From Chloroflexota bacterium (lineage in GTDB: Bacteria > Chloroflexota > Anaerolineae > Aggregatilineales > Phototrophicaceae), in the NCBI GenBank assembly GCA_011523545.1, contig WTGN01000028.1, forward strand, positions 46,201-110,200: 64,000 nucleotides of DNA, read 5' to 3'. The stretch's first letter is position 1, and every line of letters starts with the position of its first letter. The notes below the pieces were generated by a model. That model saw only the letters and a list, made by a program, of their open reading frames with translations, had not been told where the DNA came from and made no database searches. Shown one piece after another: positions 4,499 to 18,122 of this stretch. Made by a program: the position numbers and the translations under genes.

Positions 4499-6100
4499 CT
4501 ATCTGGAATAGGAAACTTCCAGAAACTGATTGACGGCGACTTCTCGCAGCGTCTCTTCGTCGCCATTGGGCCAGCGGATTAGCAGCTCGCGAATGCCGGC
4601 CTCGCCCAGCCCGAAATGCAGGGCGGTGTCGTTGCCGGCGCCCAGGCTGGAGCCGCTTTTGACTTCTTGCAGCAGCGTCCTCCCGTCGTCCGTCTTGATA
4701 TAGACGCGCGCGCCGATGGCGTCGCGGTTGATATCGCCGCCGCCGATGAGACGTATGTTGATCCAATTGTTGGCGCCGCCATCCGCGCCGGAGTTGCGGT
4801 AGAGAACGTAACCCTCGTTCCAGTTGCCCAATACGAAATCGAGAAAGCCGTCGCGATCGTAATCGGCGTAGGCCAAGCCCATGCTCGGCTTCAGATCCAC
4901 CAGCCAGTCCGAGGGCGTGACATCGGCGAAGCTGCCATCGCCGCGATTCTTGAAGAGAAAATCGCGGTATTCAAACATCATGCCTTCGGGACCGGATTCG
5001 ATATCGAATTGAATGAACTCGGTGGCGGTTAGTATCAGGTCGAGCCAACTGTCGTTGTTGTAATCGAAGAATATCGTGCCCCAACCGACGGCGCTGCTGG
5101 GACCGACCATGACGCCGGCCTCCTCCGCCACATCGTCAAAGCTGCCGTCGCCCTGGTTCTGCAGCAGCACCATGCCATTGACCATATCCGAGAAGTAAAA
5201 GTCCAGATCGAGGTCATTGTCGTAATCGCCGACCGCCAGGCCCATGCCGTGAATGAAGGTGCGCGCGCCCGCTTCAATCGAGACCTCGCGCCAGCACCAG
5301 CCGCCGCAGCCGGGCCCGTCGTTGCGCCAGAGGATGTTGCCCAGCATATTTTTGAACTGATCGTTGACGACATAGATATCTGGGTCGCCATCGTTGTCAT
5401 AATCGGTGAAGCTGGCGCTGAAGCCGGCGCCCAGCAGCAGGTCGTAATCCAGCAAATGGGTGACGTCTTTGAAGCTGCCGTCGCCGCGATTGCGATAGAG
5501 CGTATCGCGGGCTTCGTCGTGCTCGCGCGTGATGTTGGGGTCGCCGCATTCAGGGAAGCATGACCAGTTGACGACATAGAGATCCAGGAAGCTGTCGCCA
5601 TCGTAATCGCCCCAGGTCGCGGTGCTGCCCTTGCCTCCATCGCCCACCCCGGCGCGTTCGGTGACATCGGTGAAGCCGCGCCCGCTTTTGTTATGGAAGA
5701 GCGCATTGGCGCCATGGTTGAGCACATAGAGATCGAGCCAGCCGTCGTTGTCGTAATCGGCCCAGACCGCGCCCCCGGTCTCGACATCAGCAAGCGCAAC
5801 CTGGGGCGTCAATTCCGACACTGAAAAGCTGCCATCGCCATTGTTGCGATAGAGCACGCTAGGGTCGCGATTGCCGGTGACATAGAGATCAAGCCAGCCG
5901 TCACGGTCATAATCGCCCCAAGCTTGGCCGATGCCGAGGTAGCCGGTGATGAAGTCTTTGTCAAAGAGCTGCCAGTCGCCGCTATGCGTGGCGCGGATGC
6001 CGGCCGATTCGCTGACATCGATAAAGGGTTCGAGCTTGCCGATGGCTGTCAAACATATCACGGCGACTATGAGTATGGCGGCGCGGGCAGCGGACATCAT
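4499..6100 (-). CDS. Secreted FG-GAP/VCBS repeat protein with C-terminal ASPIC/UnbV domain (CRTAC1-like)
   Basis: Signal-like N-terminus; many DYDxDGxLDLYV repeats; C-terminal NNWINIRLIGGGDINRDAIGARVYI..HFGLGEAGIRELLIRWPNGDEE. Confidence 0.92.
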   Translation of the reverse strand: MMSAARAAILIVAVICLTAIGKLEPFIDVSESAGIRATHSGDWQLFDKDFITGYLGIGQAWGDYDRDGWLDLYVTGNRDPSVLYRNNGDGSFSVSELTPQVALADVETGGAVWADYDNDGWLDLYVLNHGANALFHNKSGRGFTDVTERAGVGDGGKGSTATWGDYDGDSFLDLYVVNWSCFPECGDPNITREHDEARDTLYRNRGDGSFKDVTHLLDYDLLLGAGFSASFTDYDNDGDPDIYVVNDQFKNMLGNILWRNDGPGCGGWCWREVSIEAGARTFIHGMGLAVGDYDNDLDLDFYFSDMVNGMVLLQNQGDGSFDDVAEEAGVMVGPSSAVGWGTIFFDYNNDSWLDLILTATEFIQFDIESGPEGMMFEYRDFLFKNRGDGSFADVTPSDWLVDLKPSMGLAYADYDRDGFLDFVLGNWNEGYVLYRNSGADGGANNWINIRLIGGGDINRDAIGARVYIKTDDGRTLLQEVKSGSSLGAGNDTALHFGLGEAGIRELLIRWPNGDEETLREVAVNQFLEVSYSR

Positions 6101-6147: not shown

Positions 6148-7035
6148 TTATCGCTTTACGCCAGAGGTGGCGATGCCTTCGACGAAATAGCGCTGGCCGA
6201 AGATGAAGATGATTAGCACGGGGATGACCGCGATCGTCGCCACCGCCATCATCAGATGCCATTCGGTGTTGCCATAGGCGCCTTGATATTGCACCAGGCA
6301 AACCGGCAGCGTCTGAATATCCGGTGTACGCAAGTACAGCAAGGGTCCGAAGAAATTATTCCAGTTGCCGATGAAGGCGAAGATTGCAAGCGTCGCCAGG
6401 GCCGGTTTGGAGAGCGGGATGAAGATTTGCAGCAGAATGCGCGCATGCCCGGCGCCATCGATCTTGGCGGCGTCCACCAGTTCTTCCGGGATCGTCAAGA
6501 AGAATTGCCGCAGCAGAAAGATGAAAAAAGGCCAGCCGAACCAGGGCGGCACCATCAACGGCAGATGGGTATCCAACCAACCAAACCGGTTGAACAGCAC
6601 ATACTGGGGCACGACCAGCGCTTCATTGGGCAGAAGCATGGTCGCCAGCACCAAGGCGAAGAAAAAATTCTTGCCGCGCGCTTTCAAGCGAGCAAAGGCA
6701 TAAGCGGCCAAGGTGCAAGAAACCATATTCCCGATGATGTTGTTGATCGTGATCTTCAGCGAATTCCAGGTGCAGGTAGTGAAATTGACATAACCGTGAC
6801 CGTACCAGCCGTCGGGGAAATTCTGCCATTGGACAGTCTCCGGGATTAGCGTCGGCGGAAAAGCGAAAACCTGCTTGAGCGGTTTGAGCGCGGTCGACAC
6901 CATGACGAAGAAGGGCAGCATAAAAGCGATGCCGAGCGGCACCAGCAAGGCGAAGGTAAGCAAAAAGCCGATGGTGCGGCGCCCCTGAGTCGATTTGTGC
7001 CAGGCGACGTCTTCTTTGCGTTTTCGCGTCGTCAT
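6148..7035 (-). CDS. Carbohydrate ABC transporter permease (MalG/UgpE-like)
   Basis: Six TM-like segments; EELVDAAKIDGAGHARILLQIFIPLSKPALAT EAA loop. Confidence 0.94.
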   Translation of the reverse strand: MTTRKRKEDVAWHKSTQGRRTIGFLLTFALLVPLGIAFMLPFFVMVSTALKPLKQVFAFPPTLIPETVQWQNFPDGWYGHGYVNFTTCTWNSLKITINNIIGNMVSCTLAAYAFARLKARGKNFFFALVLATMLLPNEALVVPQYVLFNRFGWLDTHLPLMVPPWFGWPFFIFLLRQFFLTIPEELVDAAKIDGAGHARILLQIFIPLSKPALATLAIFAFIGNWNNFFGPLLYLRTPDIQTLPVCLVQYQGAYGNTEWHLMMAVATIAVIPVLIIFIFGQRYFVEGIATSGVKR

Positions 7036-7946
7036 CCCGTTTCAGCCTCGTAGTAAACCCAGCGCCTGCCAACCCAGAACTGAGCGCCCGTCAGCAACAT
7101 GAGAACCACGAACATGATCCAGGCGACGGCGGCGGCGATGCCCAATTGCAGGAATATGAAGGCGTTCTCCCATAAGTACCAAATCAAAACATTGCTGGAT
7201 TCTCCCGGTCCGCCCTCGGTCATCACGCGTATCTCGGTGAAATTCTGGAATGAACTCACGACAGAAATAATGATCACGAAGAAAAGCACCGGCGACAGCA
7301 TAGGCAGCGTCACGTTTCGGAATTTCGCCCAATTGCCGGCGCCATCGATTTCCGCTGATTCGTATAATTCTTTTGGCACGCCCTGCAAGCCCGCCAGCAA
7401 AATAATCATGATAGGACCGACAGAGAACATGCTCATCAAGATGAGCGACGGCTTAACCCAGGTCTTGCTGAATATCCAAGGCGGACCTTGGATGCCGATC
7501 TGCTTCAAGGTGTGATTGAGGATGCCAAGGCGCGGGTTGAAAATCCAGATCCACACCAGCGCCACCGCCACGCCCGCGGTCACCGTCGGCAGATAATAGA
7601 CGGCGCGGAAGAAGGCGATGCCCGGCACTTTCTGATTGAGCAAGACCGCCAGCAGCAAGGCGAATGACACGCCAAATACGACTCTGCCGACGACAATGTA
7701 AAGGGTATTACCAACCGACGTCCAAAAGATCGGATCGTCAAAGAGCTTGACATAATTGTCCAGCCCGATGAATTGCAGATCATCAAGCGAGATGCGCCAA
7801 TCGGTGAAGCTTAATCCCAGCATGCCGAAGACCGGACCGGCGCTAAAGACGACCAAGCCAATCAGCCAAGGCAGAATGAACAAATAAAAGATGCGCTCTT
7901 CGCGCTTGGCGGCCGCTGAAATGGGACGCGATTTTCGTCGAATCAT
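7032..7946 (-). CDS. Carbohydrate ABC transporter permease (MalF/UgpA-like)
   Basis: KELYESAEIDGAGNWAKFRNVTLPMLSP EAA loop; 4-nt overlap with the downstream permease. Confidence 0.94.
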   Translation of the reverse strand: MIRRKSRPISAAAKREERIFYLFILPWLIGLVVFSAGPVFGMLGLSFTDWRISLDDLQFIGLDNYVKLFDDPIFWTSVGNTLYIVVGRVVFGVSFALLLAVLLNQKVPGIAFFRAVYYLPTVTAGVAVALVWIWIFNPRLGILNHTLKQIGIQGPPWIFSKTWVKPSLILMSMFSVGPIMIILLAGLQGVPKELYESAEIDGAGNWAKFRNVTLPMLSPVLFFVIIISVVSSFQNFTEIRVMTEGGPGESSNVLIWYLWENAFIFLQLGIAAAVAWIMFVVLMLLTGAQFWVGRRWVYYEAETG

Positions 7947-8031: not shown

Positions 8032-9345
8032 CTACATACCGGCGACTTCGTCGAGCGCAGCCTGGCCTTCTTCCTGAATTGTGGCGATGGCTTCGTCGAC
8101 CGAAGTCTCGCCCAGGCGCAGCAGATCGGCCTCGCGGCTCAGTATCTGGCTGACCTGCGCGGCCGCCAGCGACTGGAAGGGCGGGCCCGTCACTGCGTAA
8201 TCGAACATCGCTTCCAGGAAGTAGTGACCGCTGGGCGGCGCCGGGTCGGATGTCAGCCAAGCTTCCAAGCCCTCCGGACGCGCCGGTGAACCGCGGCCCG
8301 ACAGGCTCCACATGAAGATCATTCCCTCGAGTGAGAGGTATTCACGCAGGTATGTCCAGGCGGTATCCGGCTTGTCGCTGGTCGGCGTGATGCCGTAGCC
8401 ACTGCCAAAGGCGCCCGTATAGCGCGAGCCGTCGGCGCCCATCGGCGTCGGCGCGACATCCCATTCGAAATTCGCCAGCGCGCGCATGCTCGGCGTGCTC
8501 CAGGTGGCGATATGACCCATGGCGGCGACGCCGGCGCGGAAGGGCTGCGAGTTGGGGAAGGCTTCCATCTCAGTGCCGCTGGCGCCGGCATTTTCGACGT
8601 GCTGCAGGTTGTACCAGTGGTTGAGCGCGGCGCGGACTTCGGGCGTGTCCATGGTCATCTCAGATTCGTCTTCGTTCATGTGGACGCCGCCCCAGGCGCC
8701 GGTGAAGAAGCCGCCACCGCCGTTGCCCAGATCCAGCCGGCCATCCCAGCCCCAGACGCCCATGTCGGCGTCGGTCAATTCAATAGCGGCGGCCGCCATG
8801 TCCTCCATCGTCCAGTCTTCGCTCGGATAGTCCATGCCAGCGGCGTCAAACATGTCTTTGTTGTATCCAAGGATGATCGGACCATGGTCATAGGGGAGCG
8901 CGTGGATGCGGCCATTGACGCGGTAGAGGCGCACCGATTCTTCCCACATGCCGTCAACATTAAATTCTTCATCAGCAGTGACGATGTCATGGATGTCGAT
9001 GATGATGCCTTCATGGGCCCAGGGCGTGGCGCGGCTGCCGTGTACGTAGATGATGTCGGGCAAGGTGCCGGCGGCGGCCCAGGCGGGCACGACGTTGTTG
9101 TGGTCGGCCCAGGTATTGTATGTGATGCTGACCTTGATATCCGGATGCCGCTCCATGAAGCCTTCATCGTATTCGGCCTGGCGCGGGCGGAATGCCGCTT
9201 CCCAGTGGCGGCCGAAGGTCAGCTCGACCTGGTCTTGGGCGGCGGCGATGCTGCTCAAGGGGCCCAGGCCCGCGAGCGCGGCGCCGGTGCTGGTGGCGGC
9301 GGTCAGCTTTAGGAAATCACGCCGTGAGAGTTTTTCATTCTTCAT
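8032..9345 (-). CDS. Extracellular sugar-binding protein of an ABC transporter (family 1, TAT-exported)
   Basis: N-terminal SRRDFLKLTAATSTGAALAGLG twin-arginine signal; family 1 SBP-like body; upstream of two permeases. Confidence 0.92.
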   Translation of the reverse strand: MKNEKLSRRDFLKLTAATSTGAALAGLGPLSSIAAAQDQVELTFGRHWEAAFRPRQAEYDEGFMERHPDIKVSITYNTWADHNNVVPAWAAAGTLPDIIYVHGSRATPWAHEGIIIDIHDIVTADEEFNVDGMWEESVRLYRVNGRIHALPYDHGPIILGYNKDMFDAAGMDYPSEDWTMEDMAAAAIELTDADMGVWGWDGRLDLGNGGGGFFTGAWGGVHMNEDESEMTMDTPEVRAALNHWYNLQHVENAGASGTEMEAFPNSQPFRAGVAAMGHIATWSTPSMRALANFEWDVAPTPMGADGSRYTGAFGSGYGITPTSDKPDTAWTYLREYLSLEGMIFMWSLSGRGSPARPEGLEAWLTSDPAPPSGHYFLEAMFDYAVTGPPFQSLAAAQVSQILSREADLLRLGETSVDEAIATIQEEGQAALDEVAGM

Positions 9346-9519: not shown

Positions 9520-9555
9520 TATGTCTAAATTGGCGCATATGTCTAAATTGGCGCA
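9520..9555 (+). repeat. Perfect 18-bp direct tandem repeat x2
   Basis: tatgtctaaattggcgca repeated exactly, in the intergenic region upstream of the chaperonin paralogue. Confidence 0.9.
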
Positions 9556-9734
9556 ATCGGTTGCGCGCGGCGCCTGGATTGTGGATAACCTGCCTTGCTC
9601 GCGCGAGCGGAGCCGTTTATTATCTTCGGAGCGCGTCAAGCAGCGTCGCCGTTACGCTTGGATACTGGCGAGCTTGGCGCTGTTTTACGCCAATGGATAT
9701 GTTTTCCGTTACGGTCTAGTTTTGTAGCGATTTC

Positions 9735-11342
9735 ATGCCACAACCCAAAGTCATTCATCAACCGCGGACTCAACGCGCGCTACAGCAGGGGATTGCCACG
9801 CTGGTCAGCGCCATCGCGCCAACGCTTGGACCCAGCGCCCGCCGTTCTGTCGCCCAGAATCAGGCCAAGTTGGAGCTTTTGGATGATGGCGGCTTGATCG
9901 CACGGCGCATCATCGCGCTGCCGGAGCCGGAAGCCGATGTGGGGGCGATGCTGCTGCGCCAGGTGCTATGGGATGTGTATCAGCATGTGGGTGATGGCGC
10001 CGCCACCACCGCCGTCCTTTATGAGCGCATTTATCGCGAGGGCCTTCGTTTCTTGGCGGCCGGCGCCGACCCGATGCGGCTGCGCGCCAGGCTGATGTCG
10101 CTTCTGCCCGCCATGACCGAGCGTCTGCTGGCAGACGCGCGCCCGCTGCGTGGCGAAGCGGAACTGAAGCGGCTGGCGCTCTCGGTCTGTTATGACGAGG
10201 AAATGGCGGATGTCATAGGCGAAGTCATCGACACGATCGGGCAATACGGGCAGGTCGATGTCCGCGCCGGGCATGGCCGCGGCCTGGAATACAACTTTGT
10301 GGACGGCAGCTATTGGAAAGGCGGCGCCCAATCCAAAGAGATGCTGCGCGGGTTCGCTCGTCAAGTGGTTGAGATGCAGGACGCTGCCATCCTCGTCACC
10401 GATATGGACATTGAGGAACCGCGCGATCTCGTGCCGGCGATGAGCCTGGCGCTGCGCTTGGGCATCACGCAATTGCTGTTGATCGTCGCTTCTATTTCTG
10501 AAACCGGCCTTTCGGTCGTACTTGATGATCGTCTGAAGAATAAGATCAGGACGGTTGTTGTCAAGATTGACGCCTACCATCCGGGCGACCTGAGCATCGC
10601 GCAGGAGGACATTGCGCTATTGACCGGCGCCCGACCGCTGCTGCAAAAGGCGGGCGAAACGCTGGAGCATGTGCGGCAGAGCGACTTCGGCGACGCGCGT
10701 TGGGTCTGGGCGGACGACAAGAATTTCGGCTTCGCCAGCGGCAAAGGCGATCCACAACAGCTGCGCGAGACGGTGCGCGGCCTGCGGGCGGCCTACGCTG
10801 CGAGCGAGGATGATGACGCGCGGAAGCGCCTGCTCGAACGGCTGGGCCGCCTCAATGGCGGGCTGGCGACGGTCTACGTGGGCGGCATCGCCGAAGATGT
10901 AATCAGAGGGCGCAAGGAAGTGGCCGAGCGAAGCATTCGCGCCTTGAGGAACGCGGCGGCTTATGGCGTGATTCCCGGTGGTGGCGCCGCGCTGCTGCGC
11001 TGCCGCGATTGGCTGCTGAATGAAGCCGATGCGCAGAACGAGCTTGAAAGCCGCGCCGCCCGTTTGATCATGGCCGAAGCGGCCGAAGCGCCGATGCGCC
11101 AGTTGCTTTCAAACGCCGGTTATGAGCCGAGCGAAGTTTTGGCGCGCTTGCAGCACTGCGGGGATGAAGCGGGCTTTGACGTGACACGAGGCGTCATCGT
11201 CGATCTGGCGGCGGCCGGCATTTTGGATGTGGCGCAGGTGCAGGTCGAGGCTTTGCAACGCGCCGTTTCCAGCGCCGCCCTCGCCTTGACGATTGACGTG
11301 CTGGTGCTGCATCGCGAGCCGGAGACGATGACGGATCCTTAA
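9735..11342 (+). CDS. Divergent GroEL/Cpn60-type chaperonin paralogue
   Basis: TLGPSARRSV, LDDGGLIARRI, GDGAATTAVL, YGVIPGGGAALLR, GILDVAQV align to GroEL; no GGM tail; changes at the ATPase and apical sites. Confidence 0.85.
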   Translation: MPQPKVIHQPRTQRALQQGIATLVSAIAPTLGPSARRSVAQNQAKLELLDDGGLIARRIIALPEPEADVGAMLLRQVLWDVYQHVGDGAATTAVLYERIYREGLRFLAAGADPMRLRARLMSLLPAMTERLLADARPLRGEAELKRLALSVCYDEEMADVIGEVIDTIGQYGQVDVRAGHGRGLEYNFVDGSYWKGGAQSKEMLRGFARQVVEMQDAAILVTDMDIEEPRDLVPAMSLALRLGITQLLLIVASISETGLSVVLDDRLKNKIRTVVVKIDAYHPGDLSIAQEDIALLTGARPLLQKAGETLEHVRQSDFGDARWVWADDKNFGFASGKGDPQQLRETVRGLRAAYAASEDDDARKRLLERLGRLNGGLATVYVGGIAEDVIRGRKEVAERSIRALRNAAAYGVIPGGGAALLRCRDWLLNEADAQNELESRAARLIMAEAAEAPMRQLLSNAGYEPSEVLARLQHCGDEAGFDVTRGVIVDLAAAGILDVAQVQVEALQRAVSSAALALTIDVLVLHREPETMTDP

Positions 11343-11343
11343 T

Positions 11344-12207
11344 ATGATGTCAATCGAAACGCTTGAGCGAACCAACGGCCTGCTGGCAACCGACGATTTA
11401 ATCTACGCAGCGCGTCAAAGCGGGCTGCATCGCTTGACCGCGGACGGGGACAATTCGCGCAGCCTCTTCGAAAGCTGGCTGCCTGGGCAGGATGTGCCGA
11501 CCCTGGCAATCGCCGCCTATGGCGAGCTGCTGCTGGCCGGCATCAAGGGCGGGGTCGCCCGCTCAGCAGACGGCGGCGCCAGCTGGGAGGCGCAGCAGTT
11601 TCGGGCGCCGGCCCCGCTTGTGACCTGCCTGGCGCTTTCGACCAATTTCGATGACGACGGCGTCGTGCTGGCTGGCACATTTGAAGACGGCGTGTTTCGT
11701 TCCACCGACGGCGGCATATCCTGGCGGGCGGTCAATCACGCCTTGTTCGATCACAGCATCTACGCGCTGGCGCTCTCGCCGGGGTTCGCCCATGACGGCA
11801 TTGTCTACGCCGGCACAGGCAGCGGCGTCTACCGCAGCGAAAATGGCGGCCGTCTGTGGTGGGATTTGACCATGCCGGCCGGCGATGAAACGGTGCTCAG
11901 CCTGGCGCTGTCCGGGAACGGGGCGATTTACGCCGGCTGTGAGGCGCACGGCCTGCTGCGCTCTAACGATGCTGGCCTAAGCTGGGCGACGCTGTTGGAA
12001 ACCGAGGGCGCGGTCAATGCGGTGGCGCTCATGCCAGACGGCGCGATCGTCGCTCAGGTGGACGACGGAGTTCTGCTGTCGCGAGATGACGGCGCGAATT
12101 GGAATCAATTAGCGGCGGAGAACGTGGACTGCATAACGCTGGACAAAAGCAGCGAGACGCTCATTCTTGCGATGGCCGATGGCAGCATTCGGCGAGTTGC
12201 GCTTTAA
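11344..12207 (+). CDS. BNR/Asp-box repeat beta-propeller protein (WD40/YVTN/BNR-like)
   Basis: Repeated Asp-boxes: SADGGASWE, STDGGISWR, SENGGRLWW, SNDAGLSWA, SRDDGANWN; starts 1 nt after the chaperonin stop. Confidence 0.85.
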   Translation: MMSIETLERTNGLLATDDLIYAARQSGLHRLTADGDNSRSLFESWLPGQDVPTLAIAAYGELLLAGIKGGVARSADGGASWEAQQFRAPAPLVTCLALSTNFDDDGVVLAGTFEDGVFRSTDGGISWRAVNHALFDHSIYALALSPGFAHDGIVYAGTGSGVYRSENGGRLWWDLTMPAGDETVLSLALSGNGAIYAGCEAHGLLRSNDAGLSWATLLETEGAVNAVALMPDGAIVAQVDDGVLLSRDDGANWNQLAAENVDCITLDKSSETLILAMADGSIRRVAL

Positions 12208-12365: not shown

Positions 12366-13757
12366 ATGACATTTGAACCAACACTCGAATCAGTAGGCAC
12401 ACACCAAGTCCCGGATTGGTATCACAACGCCAAGCTCGGCATCTTCATCCACTGGGGCTTGTATTCGGTGCCGGCTTGGGCGCCGGCGGGCGGAGACATC
12501 GGCGAAGTCTTCGAAAGCGGCGATATGAGCGACTGGTTTCGCGTTAATTCTTATGCCGAATGGTATCTGAATACGCTCAAGTTTGAAGATGGACCCACGC
12601 GCGCCTGGCACAACAAGCGTTACGGCGCTGACTTCCATTATGACGACTTCAAAGCCGGCTTCAACTCGGGGCTGAGACGATGGAACCCAGCCGACATGGC
12701 TTCCCTTTTCCGCGAGGTCAACGCGCGCTACGTCGTATTGACGAGCAAACACCATGACGGTTTCACCCTCTGGCCCAGCGATATCCCCTGCCCGCACAAG
12801 GAGAACTATCACACGATGCGCGATGTGGTCGGCGAGCTGACCGACGCCGTCCGCGCCGAGGGCTTGCGCATGGCGATCTATTATTCCGGCGGGCTGGACT
12901 GGGCGTTCAACGAGGCGCGCATCGAACAAGTCCAGGATGTCTGGGGCACAATCGTGCAGACGCCTGAATTCGTCGACTACTCGGTCGCGCACTGGAAAGA
13001 GCTGATCGACAAGTACAAGCCCTCGATCATGTGGAATGATATCGGCTACCCGGCGGCGGCCGACCTGGGCGAGCTATTCGCCTACTATTACAACAACGTG
13101 CCCGATGGCGTCATCAATGACCGCTTCACCCAAGCGCGCGATCAGCGGCCGACGCCGGGCGAAAAGCTGACGTCGCCGCGCGGACCCCATTACGACTACA
13201 TCACACCGGAATACGCCACCTTCGACGAGATTCAGGATGTTAAGTGGGAATGCTGCCGGGGCATCGGCCACAGCTTCGGTTACAACCGCGCCGAGGGCGA
13301 TGCCGAGTTGCTGGCGGAGGACGAGATGATCCACATGTTCGTCGACATCGTCAGCAAGAACGGCAATCTGCTGCTGAATGTCGGCCCGATGGCTGATGGC
13401 GCGATCCCCGACAATCAAGCCGACCGTCTGCGATCATTGGGCCGCTGGCTGGACCGCAACGGCGAGGCCATCTTCGATACCCGGCCCTGGCGGCGCGCCG
13501 AGGGAAAGACATCCCAGGGGCTTGGCCTACGCTTCACCGCGACCGAAGACGCCTTGTACGCCACCCTGTTCGGCTCGCCTGCCGAGAGCGAAATCCGCAT
13601 AGAGCAACTGGAAGCGCCAGCCGGAGCGAGCCTTCAGTTGCTGGGGCGCGACAGCGACCTGGCTTGGGAGCAGGACGGTGCCGACTTGAAGATTCAATTG
13701 CCGGAGCTGCCCGACGCGCCGGCGCATTCTATCGCGATTCGTGGCATAGGTGGCTGA
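12366..13757 (+). CDS. GH29 alpha-L-fucosidase (copy 2)
   Basis: LGIFIHWGLYSVPAW, LTSKHHDGFTLWPS, IMWNDIGYPA, VKWECCRGIGHSFGYN. Confidence 0.94.
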   Translation: MTFEPTLESVGTHQVPDWYHNAKLGIFIHWGLYSVPAWAPAGGDIGEVFESGDMSDWFRVNSYAEWYLNTLKFEDGPTRAWHNKRYGADFHYDDFKAGFNSGLRRWNPADMASLFREVNARYVVLTSKHHDGFTLWPSDIPCPHKENYHTMRDVVGELTDAVRAEGLRMAIYYSGGLDWAFNEARIEQVQDVWGTIVQTPEFVDYSVAHWKELIDKYKPSIMWNDIGYPAAADLGELFAYYYNNVPDGVINDRFTQARDQRPTPGEKLTSPRGPHYDYITPEYATFDEIQDVKWECCRGIGHSFGYNRAEGDAELLAEDEMIHMFVDIVSKNGNLLLNVGPMADGAIPDNQADRLRSLGRWLDRNGEAIFDTRPWRRAEGKTSQGLGLRFTATEDALYATLFGSPAESEIRIEQLEAPAGASLQLLGRDSDLAWEQDGADLKIQLPELPDAPAHSIAIRGIGG

Positions 13758-15042
13758 GTTGAGCGCGAAAGTCAACGCCTTCGTCGAGAAGAACCTGCGC
13801 TGGAACTTCTCGGTCAATCTGATCGACATCACCTTCATCACGCTCGCCTTCAGCTTGATCTCGCGCGAGACGATCACGCCGCTGCTCATCAGCAACCTGA
13901 CGGATTCGAAGATCGCCATCGGCCTGGTGCCGGCGATCTACAGCATCGCCTATTACCTGCCGCAGCTTTTCGCCGCCAACCATGCCGAGCGCTTAAAGCA
14001 CAAGCTGCCCTTTGTCATGGTTATCGGCGGCTTGCTGGAGCGCGTGCCCTATCTCTTCGCCGGGCTGGCGATTTTGCTGCTGGCGGAGGGCGCGCCGATC
14101 GCGGCTCTTCTCTGCCTCTACCTGGTGATCGGCCTGGGCGCGCTCGGCAATGGCGTGGCGACGCCGGCCTGGTTCAGCATGATTGGCAAGGTCCTGCCGG
14201 TCACGCGGCGCGGGATATTCTTCGGCCTCAGCGAAGGCCTGGGCACGCTGATGGGCATCATCGGCGCGTTTTTTGTCGGTCTCGTGCTTGATTCCGTCGG
14301 CTACCCGCTGAATTTCGCGACCTTGTTTCTCATCGCCGCCGTTTTCATGGGCATCTCCTGGGTCGGCCTGGCGCTGAACCGCGAGCCGGAAAGCCCTGTC
14401 GTCAAAGCCCATATTCCCTTCAGCCACTATTTCCGCCGCTTGCCGGCGATATTGCGCACGAATCAGAACTTCAGGCGATTTCTGCTGAGTTATTCCATCA
14501 GCCGCTTGAGCACGATGGGCGTCGGCTTTTTCATCGTCTTCGGCGATGAGCGCTTCCAATTGACCGGCGCCGAAGTCGGCCTGCTGACCGCTATATTGAT
14601 CGGAAGCCAGGCGGCCATGCAGCTGCTGCTTGGCTGGCTGGCCGATAAACGCGGGCACAAAGCCAACCTGACGATTTCCGGCCTCGCGCTGGCGTTGGCG
14701 GCGCTGCTGGCGCTGACGGCAAACGATATCGCCGGGCTGGCGCTGGCCTTCATTCTGTTGGGCGTCGGGCTGGGAAGCGACCATGTATCGCGCCTGAATA
14801 TCATCCTGGAATTCGCCGTGCCGGAAGATCAGCCGACCTTCATTGGGCTGACCAATACCTTGCTGGCGCCGGTGGTCTTTCTGGCGCCGATTTTTGGCGG
14901 CTGGCTGGCGGATTTCGGTTTCGACGCGCTCTTCGTCTTGATGACGATCTGCGGCGCGCTAGGTGGATTGCTGCTGCTGATCTGGGTGCAAGAGCCGCGC
15001 CATTTGCCGCCGGCGCCAATCGACAGCAAGCCCAAGCGCTAA
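13750..15042 (+). CDS. MFS transporter (tandem copy A)
   Basis: About 12 TM-like segments; GTG start overlaps the fucosidase stop by 8 nt; GWLADKRGHK loop. Confidence 0.88.
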   Translation: MAELSAKVNAFVEKNLRWNFSVNLIDITFITLAFSLISRETITPLLISNLTDSKIAIGLVPAIYSIAYYLPQLFAANHAERLKHKLPFVMVIGGLLERVPYLFAGLAILLLAEGAPIAALLCLYLVIGLGALGNGVATPAWFSMIGKVLPVTRRGIFFGLSEGLGTLMGIIGAFFVGLVLDSVGYPLNFATLFLIAAVFMGISWVGLALNREPESPVVKAHIPFSHYFRRLPAILRTNQNFRRFLLSYSISRLSTMGVGFFIVFGDERFQLTGAEVGLLTAILIGSQAAMQLLLGWLADKRGHKANLTISGLALALAALLALTANDIAGLALAFILLGVGLGSDHVSRLNIILEFAVPEDQPTFIGLTNTLLAPVVFLAPIFGGWLADFGFDALFVLMTICGALGGLLLLIWVQEPRHLPPAPIDSKPKR

Positions 15043-15069
15043 ACCAACGCGGCGCGAACGGATACCGCT

Positions 15070-16347
15070 GTGACAAAATCGACGGCAAGCCCGGTCGAAG
15101 AAAACGTCAATTGGAATTTCAGCGTCAATGTGCTGGACAATATGTTCTATGCCTTGGCGATCAGCCTGGTTTCACAAGAGACTATAATGCCGCTGCTGGT
15201 CAGCAAATTGACCGATTCAACGATCGCCGTCGGTCTGATCCCCGCTATCTTCAGCTTGTGCTTCCTGCTGCCGCAGCTCTTCGTCGCCAATCATGCCGAG
15301 CGCCTGCCGCGCAAGCTGCCTTTCGTCCTGCTTGGCAGCGGCCTGCTGCAGCGCCTGCCCTACCCATTGATCGGCCTGGCGCTTCTGCTCTTCGCCCTTG
15401 ATGCGCCTGGCCTGGCGCTGATGCTCTTCTTCGTCGGCATCGCCACGGCCGCATTCGGCGGCGGCATCGTGACGCCGGCCTGGTTCAGCATGATCGGCAA
15501 AGTGATACCGACGCGGCGGCGCGGCATCTTCTTCGGCCTGGCCGATGGCGGCGGCTTGCTTTTGGGCGTCGTCGGCGCCTACTTCGTCGGGCGCGTGCTG
15601 GATGCCGTCGACTATCCGGGCGGGTTCGCCCTGCTCTTTTTGGTCTGCGGCTTCATTCACGCCATGTCCTGGTTCTCTCTGTCCTTGACGCGCGAGCCAC
15701 CCAGCGGGGTCACCAAAGAGGCGGCGCCGCTGCGCCAATATTTCCGTCAGCTGCCAGCTATTCTGCGCGGCCACGCCAATTATCGGCGCTTCCTCGTCGG
15801 CTATGCCCTGCTGCGCTTGAGCATGATGGCGGTTAGCTTTTTCATCGTATTCGCCAATATCAGCTATGAATTAAGCGGGGCTGACATCGGCCTGCTCAAC
15901 GCGATCTTCATTGGCACGCAGGCGGTCATGCGGCTGCTCTTCGGCTGGCTGGGCGACCGCTGGGGGCACAAGCGCAACCTGGTCATCTCGGCCGGGGCGA
16001 TGGCATTGGCGGCTTTGTTCGCGCTGTCATCGGTCAGTCTCGCCGGGCTGATACCGGCCTTCATCTGCCTCGCCTGCGCCATTTCCGCCGATATGGTTTC
16101 ACACTTCAACATCGTGCTTGAATTCGCCGACCCCGCCGAGCAGCCGACCTATATCGGGCTGACAAACACCTTGATGGCGCCATTTACGTTCGCTGGTCCC
16201 ATTCTTGCCGGCTGGATCGCTTCCGCCTTCACGATGCATCTGCTCTTTGCGCTTGCCCTTGCGTTTGGCGTTGGCGGCGGCGCGCTGCTATGGCGTTGGG
16301 TGCAAGAGCCACGCCGCAAATTCGAATCTGCCGGGGCGTCTCGGTGA
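15070..16347 (+). CDS. MFS transporter (tandem copy B)
   Basis: Clear paralogue of the preceding MFS (NWNFSVNVLDNMFYALAISLVSQETIMPLL vs RWNFSVNLIDITFITLAFSLISRETITPLL); GTG start; C-terminus runs into a palindromic repeat. Confidence 0.88.
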   Translation: MTKSTASPVEENVNWNFSVNVLDNMFYALAISLVSQETIMPLLVSKLTDSTIAVGLIPAIFSLCFLLPQLFVANHAERLPRKLPFVLLGSGLLQRLPYPLIGLALLLFALDAPGLALMLFFVGIATAAFGGGIVTPAWFSMIGKVIPTRRRGIFFGLADGGGLLLGVVGAYFVGRVLDAVDYPGGFALLFLVCGFIHAMSWFSLSLTREPPSGVTKEAAPLRQYFRQLPAILRGHANYRRFLVGYALLRLSMMAVSFFIVFANISYELSGADIGLLNAIFIGTQAVMRLLFGWLGDRWGHKRNLVISAGAMALAALFALSSVSLAGLIPAFICLACAISADMVSHFNIVLEFADPAEQPTYIGLTNTLMAPFTFAGPILAGWIASAFTMHLLFALALAFGVGGGALLWRWVQEPRRKFESAGASR

Positions 16348-16356
16348 GTCGCCCGC
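16332..16356 (+). repeat. Family A palindromic repeat overlapping the MFS copy B stop codon
   Basis: cggggcgtctcggtgagtcgcccgc. Confidence 0.75.
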
Positions 16357-16419
16357 TTTTCCAGCCATGAAACTGTATTGCTTGTCCGGAACTAAATATT
16401 GGTCGCCTGCCTATGGTTC

Positions 16420-16483
16420 ACCCCCCTATAAATCTCCCCCGACGGGTCAGTGTCTACGCGACCCCAATGAATTGGGGGGAGAC
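16420..16483 (+). repeat. Family C C/G-rich palindrome (ACCCCC..AATC-CCCCC..ATTGGGGGGA) with nested ~22-bp element
   Basis: acccccctataaatctccccc / gacgggtcagtgtctacgcgac / cccaatgaattggggggaga; compare 54290-54321. Confidence 0.75.
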
Positions 16484-16520
16484 TTTTTTCGCCGTCGAGA
16501 CCGTTCAATTGGCGACTAAA

Positions 16521-16564
16521 CTCCCCTTCCCTAGCTTGCTGGGGAAGGGGCCGGGGGATGGGGT
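16521..16564 (-). repeat. Family B C/G-rich palindrome (CCCCATCCCCCGGCCCCTTCCC..GGGAAGGGGAG)
   Basis: ctccccttccctagcttgctggggaaggggccgggggatgggg. Confidence 0.8.
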
Positions 16565-16604
16565 GAAAGATTCGCGCTCGAATGACCCAGTACCGGACAA
16601 GCCT

Positions 16605-16633
16605 TGTAGGGGCGACATACCATGTCGCCCGCC
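16605..16633 (+). repeat. Family A palindromic repeat
   Basis: tgtaggggcgacataccatgtcgcccgcc. Confidence 0.85.
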
Positions 16634-16655
16634 GAAACACAAACAGGATGCAAAT

Positions 16656-18122
16656 ATGGGAGACAACATGTCCAAGACCTACCAAGCAACTTGGGAATCC
16701 CTCACGCGCCACGAGGCGCCGGCCTGGTTCATCGATGGGAAATTCGGCCTGTACGCCCACTGGGGCATTTACAGCGTGCCCGGCTTCGGCAATGAATGGT
16801 ACGGCAAATGGATGCACGACCCCGCGCATGAGATTCATCGGCAGCATGCTGAGCGCTTTGGCGCGCCCGCCGATTATGGCTACACCCGGTTCATCGACGG
16901 CTTCACGGCGGAACATTACGACCCCGATGAATGGGCCGCGCTATTCGCTGCCAGCGGCGCGCGCTACGCCGGTTTTTCGCTGGCGCACCATGATGGCTTC
17001 GGCTTGTGGGATAGCGATGTCTACCGCTGGAATGTCGGAAAGATGGGGCCGAAGCGCGATCTCTACGGCGAGCTGGCGGCGGCGCTGCGGGCGCGGGGCT
17101 TGCGGCTGGTCGCGCCATTTCACATCATCCGCGGCTTCAACTGGTTCCTGCCCGGCTGGAATCAGTGGGATCAAACCTTTGACGCGGCCGCCATTGAGCG
17201 CGGCCTGGCGGAAGGCTGGGAGCTCTTCGACCCCGATTACGCCGATTTCTATTGGGTGCAGCAGACGAGCCAGTTCGAAGATTTCTTCATACAGTGGCAG
17301 CTGAAAGTACGCGAGGTCATAGACAAGTATCAGCCCGATATGATGTGGTTCGACGGCGGCAAATTCCGCGATGATGGCTATGAAGAAACAGCGCTGGAGA
17401 TCCTGGCGCATTATTTGAATCAAGCGGGAGCCCGCGGCCAGGACGTGCTGGTGCTGAACAAATTGCCGGTCAGCATGAAATACAACTTCCATCCCGACTT
17501 CGGCGTGATCAACTTTGAAAAAGGTCGCGACCGTCCCTTGCGCTACGACCGGCCCTGGAACGATGACATGCGCATCGGCGATCAATCCTGGGGCTGGGTG
17601 GAGAATCAGCAATACGCCAGCGGGCATACCCTGCTCAGCAAGCTGATCGATTGCGCGGCTCGCGGCGGTACCATGATGCTCTCGCTCTCGCCCATGCCGG
17701 ATGGCCGGATCCCCGCCGGCCAGCGCGATTCGCTGCTGGAAATGGGCGCCTGGCTGCGTTGGAATGGCGAAGCGATCTACGAAACGCGGCCCTGGACGAC
17801 CCACTCCGAAGGCGATTTGGAGAAACTTTGGCATCATGAGCGCGGGCACAAATTCTGGATCTATGACAATTGCAATGCCGATGACAGGCGCTATACGCAG
17901 TCAAAAGACGGGCGAACGGTTTACGCGATGACACTCGGCATCCCGTCGGAGCCGGTGACATTCGAAGCGCTCAACGACACCGTTGGCATCGAGCGCGTGT
18001 CCCTCGTCGAGTCGGACCAGCCGGCGCGCTGGCGGCAATCGCCGGCCGGCCTGACCATCGACGTCAGCCAGCACAGGTTCAAGACCGAACTGGCCGCCGC
18101 CTGGAAGGTGTCGCTTAGATGA
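16656..18122 (+). CDS. GH29 alpha-L-fucosidase (copy 3)
   Basis: FGLYAHWGIYSVPGFGNEWY, LAHHDGFGLWDS, MMWFDGGKF; listed ORF begins at 16413 but residues before MGDNMSK are repeat translation. Confidence 0.92.
   Translation: MGDNMSKTYQATWESLTRHEAPAWFIDGKFGLYAHWGIYSVPGFGNEWYGKWMHDPAHEIHRQHAERFGAPADYGYTRFIDGFTAEHYDPDEWAALFAASGARYAGFSLAHHDGFGLWDSDVYRWNVGKMGPKRDLYGELAAALRARGLRLVAPFHIIRGFNWFLPGWNQWDQTFDAAAIERGLAEGWELFDPDYADFYWVQQTSQFEDFFIQWQLKVREVIDKYQPDMMWFDGGKFRDDGYEETALEILAHYLNQAGARGQDVLVLNKLPVSMKYNFHPDFGVINFEKGRDRPLRYDRPWNDDMRIGDQSWGWVENQQYASGHTLLSKLIDCAARGGTMMLSLSPMPDGRIPAGQRDSLLEMGAWLRWNGEAIYETRPWTTHSEGDLEKLWHHERGHKFWIYDNCNADDRRYTQSKDGRTVYAMTLGIPSEPVTFEALNDTVGIERVSLVESDQPARWRQSPAGLTIDVSQHRFKTELAAAWKVSLR

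Follow-up and report, generated by a model that had tools for sequence, protein, structure and literature searches.

The window, a 64,000-nucleotide stretch of a Chloroflexota genome, carries a divergent group I chaperonin gene that belongs to a family of about 95 relatives, found almost exclusively in Chloroflexota. No member of this family retains the catalytic Asp398 of GroEL, and in most loci a gene for a cytosolic BNR/Asp-box beta-propeller protein lies immediately downstream. GroEL is usually regarded as a generalist folding machine driven by ATP. For the family described here, we give about an even chance to the reading that its members are partner-dedicated chaperonins, which would hold, enclose or assemble the beta-propeller (or another operon product in the subclades that lack the propeller) when sugar genes are switched on. 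The bolder version, in which the family gave up ATP hydrolysis and became a nucleotide-switched ring dedicated to one beta-propeller in sugar-utilisation loci, is tentative, and we would sooner doubt than assert it. If true, it would make the family a natural separation-of-function experiment, namely a chaperonin ring without turnover and with specificity for one partner. With only two genes, the pair is also a compact system open to testing, and it suggests a function for genes to which automatic annotation would give no more than the name chaperonin.

The chaperonin gene and its neighbours in the window are as follows:

6148 to 7035, minus strand: ABC permease, MalG-type (BPD_transp_1), labelled MalG by position and homology
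7032 to 7946, minus strand: ABC permease, MalF-type (BPD_transp_1), labelled MalF by position and homology
8032 to 9345, minus strand: sugar ABC solute-binding protein (SBP_bac_1) with a TAT-like signal, divergent from the chaperonin
9551 to 9566, no strand: LacI-type operator-like palindrome GCGCAATCGGTTGCGC, between the solute-binding protein and chaperonin genes
9735 to 11342, plus strand: divergent group I chaperonin, GroEL-like, 535 aa, with D398R, T89A/T90A and Y199A/Y203E/F204M and no GGM tail
11344 to 12207, plus strand: BNR/Asp-box beta-propeller protein, 287 aa, starting 1 nt past the chaperonin stop codon
12366 to 13757, plus strand: alpha-L-fucosidase (GH29; PF01120, 1.2e-86)
13750 to 16347, plus strand: two MFS transporters in tandem (13750-15042 and 15070-16347)
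16659 to 18122, plus strand: second alpha-L-fucosidase (GH29; PF01120, 5.2e-86)

The chaperonin reading frame is intact and complete. It matches the Pfam family Cpn60_TCP1 above the cut-off (1.9e-34, residues 25-524), while the NCBIfam GroEL models score it at 280-312 bits, each under its own cut-off; the GroEL equivalog TIGR02348 gives 279.9 against a cut-off of 582.1. The earlier note, which had described a strongly divergent GroEL/Cpn60 paralogue from the sequence alone, is confirmed. Group II models score it far below group I models, and a group II or III chaperonin was rejected. Its AlphaFold2 model (pLDDT 88.9, pTM 0.84) has the three-domain GroEL fold and resembles GroES-bound GroEL with a TM-score of up to 0.84-0.86. 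The protein shares 28% identity with the canonical, groES-linked GroEL of the same genome.

Residue numbers come from aligning the protein with E. coli GroEL, whose sequence was verified in the PDB, with the GroEL of the same genome and with numerous relatives. Arg stands at position 398, positions 89-91 are Ala-Ala-Thr (the change from GDGTTTATVL to GDGAATTAVL), position 265 is Asp, and the apical residues Tyr199, Tyr203 and Phe204, which form the GroES and client patch, are replaced by Ala, Glu and Met. Several apical hydrophobic residues remain. The C-terminal GGM tail is absent. The catalytic Asp52 and the Mg- and nucleotide-binding residues Asp87, Thr91, Gly414-416 and Asp495 are retained. 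Of the residues considered for assembly into a 7- or 14-mer ring, Arg452 and Glu461 are kept too, and Val464 is mostly changed across the family. The earlier hand alignment thus proved correct at each residue compared, from the missing Asp398, altered apical region and absent tail to the preserved Asp52, Asp87 and Asp495, but Asp52 is kept in only 39 of the 95 family members.

The genome (4.54 Mb, 105 contigs) encodes five Cpn60 proteins: one from a canonical groES-groEL pair (C97), which rules out that the window gene is the only groEL, and four divergent ones, the other three being 37-41% identical to the window copy. All four divergent genes adjoin sugar ABC transporter genes. Two (C86 and C32) lie directly downstream of a MalG-type permease, SBP-MalF-MalG together with a GH32-like gene precedes the third (C9), and the fourth, the one in the window, is divergently transcribed from SBP-MalF-MalG. 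The genome contains at least 150 ABC permeases, so that proximity alone is a weak sign; immediate, same-strand, overlapping adjacency is a stronger one. The four paralogues, their link to sugar ABC transporters and the beta-propeller partner, none of which the earlier note could have seen, are the more telling facts. A plasmid or phage origin was rejected, as neither collection gave a match of at least 60% identity (best about 32% and 29%).

A profile built from the four divergent copies scored full-length family members from the same genus, and from some genomes of the same order, at about 510-885 bits, compared with about 350 for canonical GroEL. A scan of the genomes of 85,488 species, using patterns derived from the same four copies and hence liable to miss distant members elsewhere, yielded 80 retained loci, nearly all labelled Chloroflexota, with one Thermomicrobiales and one unlabelled bacterium. 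In a careful tree, all of the family (30/30 rows) fell on one side of a single branch (support 100/98), separate from canonical GroEL, a Vibrio phage chaperonin and Rhodococcus monooxygenase-operon GroELs. A chaperonin with a very long branch, encoded in a different genome of the Chloroflexota (L161, 1374-2978, minus strand), which a first quick tree had put inside the family, was omitted from the careful one, and its placement is unsure.

Position 398 is Arg in 54 of the 95 members, Glu in 21, Ala in eight, Lys in four, His in three and Gln in two, with a few other residues and no Asp. The change noted in the window is therefore shared by homologues. T90A is found in 90/95 and F204M in 81/95, and none has a GGM tail. 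By contrast with the lost catalytic residues, the nucleotide site is strongly conserved (Asp87 in 95/95, Thr91 in 91/95, Asp495 in 94/95, Gly414-416 nearly invariant). Relative to canonical GroEL/Hsp60, the family shares the fold, the domain order, these nucleotide residues and Arg452/Glu461, and differs in having lost Asp398, Thr90, the GroES/client aromatics, the GGM tail and an accompanying groES, and in forming its own clade. The apical domain is its most variable and fastest-changing part (pairwise identity 0.39, against 0.68 in canonical GroEL; equatorial 0.50 against 0.63). dN/dS is about 0.1 with near relatives, indicating purifying selection.

Hydrolysis by GroEL requires both Asp398 and Asp52, and their loss suggests that members of the family would bind ATP but turn it over slowly or not at all. 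Position 51 is Asp in 93/95 members, within the motif LD[DKSN]GG, and this near-invariant residue could in principle act as a replacement catalytic Asp. Positions 52 and 398 tend to pair as Asp52 with Arg, Lys or His398 and as Lys52 with Glu398; a salt-bridge swap is suggestive, and is not claimed here as covariation, since the Lys-Glu combination comes essentially from one subclade. No dedicated GroES was found among 26 genomes of the genus, each of which has a single GroES gene, located beside the canonical groEL where positions could be compared, and so the family appears to have no lid of its own. The absence of Asp398 from all 95 members, the lost patch, the lack of a dedicated GroES and the purifying selection all fit, and give partial support to, the earlier suggestion of a specialised chaperonin with probably altered hydrolysis and altered client and GroES binding.

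A same-strand BNR gene lies downstream of the chaperonin in 53 of the 80 loci, at a median gap of 5 nt (38/49 after thinning), and a MalG-type permease lies directly upstream on the same strand in 36 of 76, often with a 4-nt overlap (17/47 after thinning). In about half of the thinned loci there is no ABC gene within three genes. Where the ABC permease is missing, sugar genes of other kinds are often present (LacZ, arabinofuranosidase, FGGY kinases, LacI), and some of these loci instead have MTTB, histidine kinases or response regulators. The window BNR protein has BNR repeats and a modelled propeller fold (pLDDT 94.6), with Foldseek matches that are propellers, including sensor propellers such as BT4673; in sequence it is related to GH74 propellers, and it has no apparent signal peptide by inspection. 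Its family relatives are mostly about 284-338 aa long and 33-64% identical to it, likewise with no obvious signal peptide on inspection.

Across 41 related genomes, each of the 49 strong BNR-family matches has a divergent chaperonin no more than 300 bp away, in 48 cases on the same strand. Both genes occur in 30 genomes, neither in 11, and one without the other in none (Fisher p 3e-10, uncorrected for the relatedness of the genomes). At the 22 loci where chaperonin, BNR and MalG genes are all present, chaperonin distances correlate with BNR distances at 0.96 and with MalG distances at 0.83; the partial correlation is 0.91. However, the propeller cannot be the sole partner, because it lies beside only 49 of the 89 divergent chaperonins in these genomes, and two subclades, including two of the four copies in the window's own genome, lack it. 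The C32-type copy is followed by a membrane protein, and the C86-type copy by a dioxygenase-like gene; partners have thus been exchanged in some lineages. A membrane protein is found downstream in 18 of the 80 loci (the C32 example has no Pfam match); at L011 (4217-5218, minus strand) and 17 similar loci, it replaces the BNR gene right after a C32-type chaperonin.

A BNR propeller gene also comes right after chaperonins of other Chloroflexota that are non-canonical but less divergent. These Cpn60 proteins (L174, L179, L180, L182, L183) likewise lack the GGM tail, but they sit on separate branches, most retain Asp398, Asp52 and the apical aromatics, and their BNR proteins are longer, at 637-721 aa (L174 5086-7104, L179 4524-6542, L180 9559-11667, L182 6233-8146, L183 9259-11424). 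Judging from a midpoint-rooted tree, the pairing is therefore probably older than the loss of the catalytic Asp. At another locus (L178, 9700-10554), an SMP-30/gluconolactonase beta-propeller gene lies right after a non-canonical chaperonin, a possible second propeller partner.

The partner-dedicated reading runs as follows. A Chloroflexota-centred group I family has split off from housekeeping GroEL and kept the fold and the nucleotide residues, with Asp398 gone from all members and Asp52 from the majority. Its members probably bind ATP and change conformation while hydrolysing little of it or doing so very slowly, presumably as rings. They have lost the aromatic apical patch for GroES and general clients, and have no GroES of their own. 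In most loci chaperonin and BNR protein are probably co-transcribed, and they are inherited together inside sugar-uptake and sugar-degradation gene sets. Release of a client from a chaperonin normally needs hydrolysis, which makes a dedicated client of a near-non-hydrolysing chaperonin mechanistically unusual.

A doubtful but serious alternative is that ring and propeller together make up a single stable assembly, which would bind nucleotide and act as a scaffold or sensor controlling the sugar transporter or the sugar genes, with no part in folding. It would account for a nucleotide site kept without its catalytic Asp, for the tight pairing and matched divergence, for the sugar loci and for the resemblance to sensor propellers such as BT4673; yet neither protein has a regulatory or membrane domain, chaperonin divergence tracks MalG less closely than BNR, and the pairing persists at loci without transporters.

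We consider it unlikely that the propeller serves as a co-chaperonin, closing the ring as its lid or cap in place of GroES. The idea draws on the lost GroES-binding patch, the missing dedicated GroES, the constant proximity of the BNR family to a divergent chaperonin and the disc-like shape of the modelled propeller. A 7-fold lid would require the propeller to oligomerise, of which there is no sign; moreover, the older relatives still have the Tyr199/Tyr203/Phe204 patch and already have a BNR gene, and two subclades do without one.

It is about equally unlikely that the gene encodes an ordinary extra GroEL that still cooperates with the housekeeping GroES in serving general or stress clients, its changes being tolerated drift. 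Additional groEL genes that lack a groES are indeed common in bacteria (PMC5406781), some of the apical hydrophobic residues are still there and the model resembles the GroES-bound state. Against this stand the absence of Asp398 from the whole family despite purifying selection, and the constant gene partner and sugar context. A decaying paralogue on its way to a pseudogene, suggested by the high divergence and the lost catalytic residue, was rejected as next to impossible given open frames in 95 members, the low dN/dS and a conserved family signature.

Vertebrate BBS6, BBS10 and BBS12 are eukaryotic chaperonin-like proteins derived from group II, with degenerate ATPase motifs, that help to assemble beta-propeller subunits of the BBSome. 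They share with the partner-dedicated reading the chaperonin-like character, the degenerate ATPase and the beta-propeller link, by analogy only. Chlamydial GroEL2 and GroEL3, which are also divergent extra GroELs without groES, have NCBIfam exception models that score the window protein at 90 and 137 bits, far below the cut-off of 600. Stand-alone groELs (PMC5406781) and GGM-less GroEL paralogues (PMC11978752, PMC5904260) are known. MmoG and MimG, GroEL paralogues in diiron monooxygenase operons that are reportedly needed for maturation of the partner enzyme, share the metabolic-operon setting and the missing GGM tail (PMC7994243, PMC7176365). The gene pairing suggests that the divergent chaperonin may similarly be dedicated to a product of its own operon. 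The MmoG/MimG-type proteins on Rhodococcus plasmids (L188, 5968-7554; L190, 4968-6554), in which all the catalytic residues checked are present, differ in retaining Asp52, Asp398, Tyr199, Tyr203 and Phe204 and group with canonical GroEL, which indicates a separate origin; membership of that line was rejected on tree and residues alike. A clade without Asp398 tied to a beta-propeller was not found in the literature searched, whose coverage left out most subscription papers, and the two-protein chaperonin/propeller system is apparently undescribed there.

In the interval between the solute-binding protein and chaperonin genes of the window (9521-9566), a direct repeat TATGTCTAAATTGGCGCA occurs twice, followed by the palindrome GCGCAATCGGTTGCGC; nowhere else does the 4.5-Mb genome match GCGCAANCGNTTGCGC. 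L044 and L046 have near-perfect copies in the corresponding interval, and the palindrome is absent from the other orthologues checked; as a putative LacI operator it is kept as a hint. Further along, two similar tandem MFS transporter genes lie between the two alpha-L-fucosidase genes (12366-18122), likely a fucoside-use cluster. Beyond the ABC genes, a gene for an FG-GAP/ASPIC-UnbV repeat protein (4499-6100, minus strand) is also found, by size and position, in several orthologous loci.
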